Assembly (NCBI RefSeq): GCF_015864575.1
Contig: NZ_JADYWW010000001.1
Coordinates: 992,001 to 1,056,000, forward strand
Origin: Salinibacterium sp. SWN248
Lineage (GTDB): Bacteria > Actinomycetota > Actinomycetes > Actinomycetales > Microbacteriaceae
Direction of reading: 5' to 3'
DNA length: 64,000 nucleotides
Numbering within the stretch: position 1 is the first letter of the stretch; the number at the start of each line of letters is the position of its first letter. Of the stretch, positions 31,883 to 32,096 are shown piece by piece. Below the pieces are notes generated by a model that searched no databases, was not told the origin of the DNA, and saw nothing but the letters and a program-made list of their open reading frames with translations. Position numbers and translations under genes: made by a program.

Positions 31883-32052
31883 GGGTGCGCTGCGTCGACT
31901 TCTGGTTGCCCCCTCCGAGTGCGCTGCGCCGTCTTGCACTCGCCCCTGTCGAGTGCGCTGCGCCGTCTTGCACTCGCCCCTGTCGAGTGCGCTGCGCCGT
32001 CTTGCACTCGCCCCTGTCGAGTGCGCTGCGCCGTCTTGCACTCGCCCCTGTC
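31883..32052. repeat. 34-bp tandem repeats carrying CIRCE-like operators
   Basis: Four identical 34-bp units (31917-31950, 31951-31984, 31985-32018, 32019-32052) follow one degenerate unit (31883-31916). At each unit's right boundary lies GCACTC, the 9-nt spacer GCCCCTGTC, and GAGTGC. That is the core of the HrcA operator CIRCE with its correct 9-nt spacing: 31936-31956, 31970-31990, 32004-32024 and 32038-32058. The units are not coding (34 is not a multiple of 3) and have no unique spacers, so this is not a CRISPR. The last site continues into the TAA of a full CIRCE half. Confidence 0.9.
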
Positions 32053-32064
32053 GAGTGCTAATTT
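32036..32064 (+). promoter_or_regulatory. predicted groEL promoter
   Basis: TTGCAC (32036-32041) and TAATTT (32059-32064), separated by 17 nt, form a plausible -35/-10 pair. The spacer is filled by the fourth array operator, so a bound repressor would block the promoter itself. Only this last unit has a -10 box; in the others the same place reads GCTGCG. Confidence 0.55.
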
Positions 32065-32069
32065 TGACC

Positions 32070-32096
32070 TTGGCACTCGCACAGTTCGAGTGCCAA
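32070..32096 (+). promoter_or_regulatory. CIRCE element (HrcA operator)
   Basis: TTGGCACTC-N9-GAGTGCCAA is a perfect 9-bp inverted repeat with the 9-nt spacer of CIRCE; it differs from the consensus half TTAGCACTC at one position. It lies just after the predicted -10 box and 43 bp before the groEL start. No hrcA gene is in the window. Confidence 0.88.

Follow-up and report, generated by a model that had tools for sequence, protein, structure and literature searches.

HrcA and CIRCE form a widely conserved bacterial repressor–operator pair, and at promoter tandem-repeat (VNTR) loci the number of units is known to tune expression. The CIRCE/HrcA operator of class I heat-shock genes is given as TTAGCACTC-N9-GAGTGCTAA in the accessible parts of three papers (PMC7464140, PMC3842655, PMC545781). 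Double CIRCE are described, in the available sections of two papers, at the dnaK and clpB promoters of Spiroplasma melliferum and at hrcA of Lactobacillus plantarum (PMC5138195, PMC3842655), and cooperativity of HrcA with HspR at a groE promoter is described for Campylobacter in the accessible part of PMC7464140. An array of more than two CIRCE was not found in the searched portions of PMC9004370, PMC3842655, PMC7464140, PMC5138195, PMC545781, and PMC8762339, subscription papers being mostly outside the search, and CIRCE did not occur in the titles and the abstract parts of the papers found on Salinibacterium and heat shock. Within the literature searched, the operator itself is known and its extra copies in an array exceeding two are new.

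We analysed a window of 64,000 nucleotides from Salinibacterium sp. SWN248, in which such an array lies directly before groEL, that is, in the promoter or 5′ region of a groE or dnaK operon where CIRCE is expected. The gene product carries the PF00118 domain, and the placement of the array in front of a true groEL, proposed in a preliminary description of this DNA, was confirmed. Tandem Repeats Finder reported a period of 34 bp with 4.2 copies and a 100% match at 31916–32058. A scan of the window located five exact GCACTC-N9-GAGTGC cores, compared to a mean of 0.005 per shuffled window in 200 mononucleotide shuffles. The four in-register units were all identical, each consisting of an exact CIRCE core with a 13-nt linker in front of it. 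A repeat search traced the 34-bp-spaced repeat upstream to 31871. The four identical units with a degenerate one, and the GCACTC-N9-GAGTGC motif said to arise at each unit junction, were therefore both borne out. The coordinates of the features are summarized in Table 1.

Table 1. Features of the groEL locus in the window and CIRCE cores located elsewhere.
Feature	Position	Strand	Remarks
Upstream neighbour with LytR_C domain	31244–31840	+	Stop precedes array
Possible far-decayed 34-bp unit	31855–31888	+	18/34 identical; right arm GGGTGC; in-register tiling
Decayed array unit	31889–31922	+	24/34 identical; right arm kept, left CIRCE arm lost
Array unit 3, extra operator (putative)	31923–31956	+	Linker 13 nt; CIRCE core 31936–31956
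Array unit 2, extra operator (putative)	31957–31990	+	Linker and CIRCE core 31970–31990
Array unit 1, extra operator (putative)	31991–32024	+	Linker and CIRCE core 32004–32024
Promoter-proximal unit with conserved CIRCE site A	32025–32058	+	Core 32038–32058
Presumed -35, TTGCAC	32036–32041	+	Begins site A in 26/26 genus loci and 59/60 other family loci
Presumed -10, TAATTT	32059–32064	+	17 nt after -35
Canonical CIRCE site B (TTGGCACTC-N9-GAGTGCCAA)	32070–32096	+	Exact core from 32073
groEL, 542 aa, PF00118	32139–33767	+	Start 42 nt behind site B
groES CIRCE sites	L060 1501–1521 and 1546–1566		One exact, one with one mismatch, 45 bp on
CIRCE core away from groEL, relatives	L108 1501–1521 (G025); L030 1501–1521 (G017); G026:C1:1155040; G006:C2:508928		

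The sites differ in the letters that flank the cores, for which TTA...TAA or close to it is expected. Site B has TTG...CAA, site A has CTT...TAA, and the three extra units have CTT...GCT. A canonical CIRCE lies 35 bp after the last array site, as had been described, whereas the claim that the segment between them aligns with a repeat unit did not hold. This segment is 14 nt long against a linker of 13 nt and gave 3 or 2 matches in ungapped comparison, and the idea that site B is the last copy of the repeat was rejected on these grounds and also by the occurrence of the A and B pair throughout the family. In regards to helical phasing, 34 bp corresponds to 3.24 turns, so that neighbouring units are turned by about 86 degrees and face different sides of the helix. 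Strict phasing was rejected: the spacings of 33, 34, 35, 56, and 57 bp correspond to 51, 86, 120, 120, and 154 degrees and share no face, these values being too few to say more.

A promoter, TTGCAC/TAATTT with a 17-nt spacer, had been predicted over the last array operator. The spacing and the overlap were reproduced, while support from the promoter scanner was lacking: no sigma-70-type promoter was called at this position by the scanner's rule, and the match is poor by the hexamer consensus alone. The promoter call therefore rests on conservation. The presumed -10 hexamer was TAATTT in 20, TAGTTT in 4, and CAAGAT in 2 of the 26 genus loci, and the hexamer 17 nt after TTGCAC was CAGAAT in 34 of 60 loci from other genera of the family. 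GCACTC is preceded by a T that does not follow the CIRCE consensus (TTA), a deviation suggesting that this T has been retained as part of the -35. Site B is likely placed over the transcription start. The three upstream units contain a -35-like hexamer but have GCTGCG in the -10 position, and they therefore look like operators without promoters.

We surveyed 27 genomes of the genus, from which G004 was left out for want of a groEL match. In all 26 remaining groEL loci, exact cores were present at -101/-102 (A) and -66/-67 (B) from the ATG, and the spacing from A to B was 35 bp in 25 loci and 36 bp in one. Of 150 family genomes, three of them from the genus of the window, 140 contained a pair of exact cores with starts 27–57 bp apart. 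Sixty loci of other genera were fetched from the listed pair-bearing genomes, a choice that is uninformative on the 10 of 150 genomes without an exact pair; every one of these pairs preceded a groEL-like start, with spacings of 33 (8 loci), 34 (25 loci), and 35 bp (27 loci). The statement that one or two CIRCE copies are normal fits these data, two being the family norm. Within 300 nt upstream of A, a further CIRCE-like core with up to 2 arm mismatches was found in 0 of the 60 loci, against an expectation of 0.92 over all 60 from shuffled sequence. Judged by these comparisons, sites A and B are ancestral, and the novelty lies in the extra copies of A upstream.

Within the genus, 10 of the 26 loci carried, upstream of A, extra cores with no more than 2 arm mismatches: three in G000; two in G001, G020, and G026; two in G025, one with a mismatch; four in G009, two with mismatches; one in G011; one with one mismatch in G017; one with two mismatches and a lost left edge in G005; and two, one with a mismatch, at 56/57-bp steps in G006. 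In a tree of groEL and hrcA, to which the hrcA of G012, G013, G014, G016, and G023 contributed gaps, nine of the ten carriers fell in one group of 11 species with a support of 100/100. Nine members of this group have 1–4 extra cores on the 34-bp unit, and G010 and G015 have none. These two species indicate that the array is dispensable. G006, with its unit length of 56/57 bp, is placed outside the group, and its array probably represents a second, separate origin. The presence of extra cores requires at least four changes on the tree, and we prefer a history of two gains and two losses.

When unit number was compared among relatives, as had been proposed, with one genome per species, it was found to change by whole units between near relatives: over 3132 aligned bases, G001 and G010 share 99.11% identity, and a single clean 68-bp block, equivalent to two units, sets them apart. 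Units were also more alike within a genome (mean 31.9/34 over 26 pairs) than between genomes (29.7/34 over 274 pairs), a pattern expected from slippage combined with homogenisation.

We compared each extra unit with the site-A unit of its own genome, leaving out three edge units. Differences were found at 4 of 192 arm positions, 7 of 144 spacer positions, and 21 of 208 linker positions (arms against linkers, p = 0.0008); with repeated differences counted once, the values were 4/192 for arms and 15/208 for linkers (p = 0.018). With the edge units included, the counts were 12/228 for arms, 12/171 for spacers, and 38/247 for linkers, and the arms were then not far from the spacers. This comparison, which is small and draws on few, related, and not independent units, suggests that the operators in the extra units are under some selection. 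A count across genomes (19 extra units; arms 12/228, spacers 16/171, linkers 57/247) was not used further, since units copied from a genome's own site A, itself under constraint, would give this pattern as well.

The genome of the window contains a single hrcA gene (183.8 bits, above the cut-off), which answers the suggestion that the genome be searched for it, and a search of 27 genus genomes, that of the window included, found one hrcA in every one. Six exact cores are present genome-wide, five at the groEL array and one before groES (PF00166, Cpn10), which lies 177 kb from groEL. The idea of a dispersed repeat was rejected on this distribution. An HspR/HAIR operator was also rejected: CTTGAGT-N7-ACTCAAG gave 3 matches in the window with up to 3 mismatches, and none was near the array. 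Several relatives carry a further exact CIRCE core away from groEL, mostly with the loop TC.....GA, and no exact counterpart of it was found in the genome of the window.

To judge how rare the pattern is, exact cores with a start-to-start spacing of 27–57 bp were scanned in the genome_contigs collection. Three exact tandem cores were found on 3 contigs, all from the genus of the window. The scan, in which the record of the window itself may be excluded by rule, returned G001, G006, and G026, three of the seven genus genomes that have the triple pattern (G000, G001, G006, G009, G011, G020, and G026). Among 396 genomes of the order, a sample in which the genome of the window is the only genus member, the triple-core pattern occurred in one, namely the window's own.

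Two other repeats were observed in the window. A run of 26 G (33862–33887) lies just behind the groEL terminator hairpin; within 320 nt behind groEL, a G or C run of at least 8 nt was found in 0 of 22 other genus loci, the nearest being, for example, GGGTGGGGGAG. Either a second locus of slippage next to groEL or a faulty assembly may account for this run. At 42609–42797, a reading frame ends in a long Asp/Glu/Ser run built from imperfect 15- and 21-bp repeats.

The explanation that we favour, with somewhat better than even confidence, is that the array consists of extra HrcA operators made by slippage, which probably reinforce the repression of groEL; slippage, the binding, and the effect are inferred. 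Site A, the upstream one of the two HrcA operators that the family keeps at the groEL promoter, would have undergone a lineage-specific expansion, in which replication slippage on the 34-bp unit would have generated, ahead of the -35, copies that contain only the operator. Dimers of HrcA would probably bind the extra units nearly side by side, the 27-bp sites being 34 bp apart. This binding may be weaker than that at site B because the right outer letters are GCT and not TAA. HrcA may cooperate with itself along the array, and the array would raise local repressor occupancy, keep A and B filled, and so repress groEL more tightly for as long as HrcA is not inactivated by heat or misfolded protein. 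Several observations weigh against this explanation: G010 and G015 manage with no extra core, the extra units have lost the outer letters on the right, the comparison of arms and linkers is small, adjacent sites point to different faces of the helix, and the promoter scanner gave no call.

The strongest competitor, which we consider a serious though clearly less probable reading, is that the array is a near-neutral by-product: slippage copies the operator and HrcA may bind the copies, while A and B suffice and selection sees no change. The range of 0 to 4 extra copies within one clade, the near-identical neighbours that differ by two units, the decay of the outer units, and the lack of extra copies in all 60 loci fetched from the rest of the family are consistent with it. 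Against it, the arms show fewer differences than the linkers inside a genome, 9 of the 11 clade members have kept one extra core or more (mismatched in G005 and G017 and partly so in G009 and G025), and G006 probably represents a separate origin.

A bolder form of the slippage account, in which the array is an operator VNTR and each 34-bp step of a heritable dial adds or removes one HrcA dimer, seems to us unlikely. If it were true, lineages would reset the set-point and the sharpness of the chaperonin heat response while leaving promoter and repressor unchanged.

The inverted repeats might instead act as RNA or DNA hairpins, serving as a terminator or an insulator against upstream read-through and not as operators. 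The region does fold well single-stranded (z -6.12), and the last core is followed by TAATTTT, which is terminator-like. The fold does not discriminate, however, because any CIRCE folds well; among the cores only the last was flagged as terminator-like, the upstream units have no T-run, and the exact HrcA core is kept together with its N9 spacing. We regard a hairpin device as very improbable. The array had also been suggested to be a titration sink for HrcA, which would derepress other targets such as groES, and five of the six exact genome cores do lie in the array region. Yet the array adds only three sites to a genome otherwise holding three exact cores, a sink would need HrcA to be present at few molecules per cell, and groES keeps a full CIRCE with a second site of one mismatch, so that this suggestion has little chance of being correct. 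With four identical units spanning 143 bp and an assembly of 5 contigs, a wrong unit number through misassembly might be suspected; it is highly improbable, since extra cores (up to 2 arm mismatches) in differing units are present in five single-contig genomes (G025, G009, G017, G005, and G011).

Among the related species, one orthologous promoter naturally occurs with 0, 1, 2, 3, and 4 extra operators. With such a series, operator number could be linked directly to how a core chaperonin is repressed and induced, and it could be asked whether slippage-made multiplication of an operator is adaptive. At least some species of the series are cultured, S. amurskyense DSM 16400 being a named strain.

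Four kinds of known systems resemble this locus. The class I CIRCE shares with the array the core, the N9 spacing, the position at the groEL promoter, and the presence of hrcA in the genome. One or two copies per promoter are described for it in the accessible parts of the literature, whereas five exact cores and decayed ones are present here, four of the exact cores lie on a 34-bp period, and the extra units are without the outer right letters. The paired CIRCE of Microbacteriaceae groEL, as seen in the genomes compared here, likewise has A and B 33–36 bp apart, with A lying in the spacer of the presumed promoter; such a pair is usual, in contrast to the extra upstream copies, which were found only in the genus of the window. 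The double CIRCE of Spiroplasma and Lactobacillus also involve multiple CIRCE at a single promoter, but they consist of two copies and form no tandem array of identical units. VNTR loci, finally, resemble the array in that the number of units ahead of a gene is variable, with slippage as the presumed cause, and a whole-unit difference between close relatives, the mark of such loci, is present in the 68 bp that separate G001 and G010. They differ from it in that each unit here is a putative operator for the repressor that controls a core heat-shock gene.
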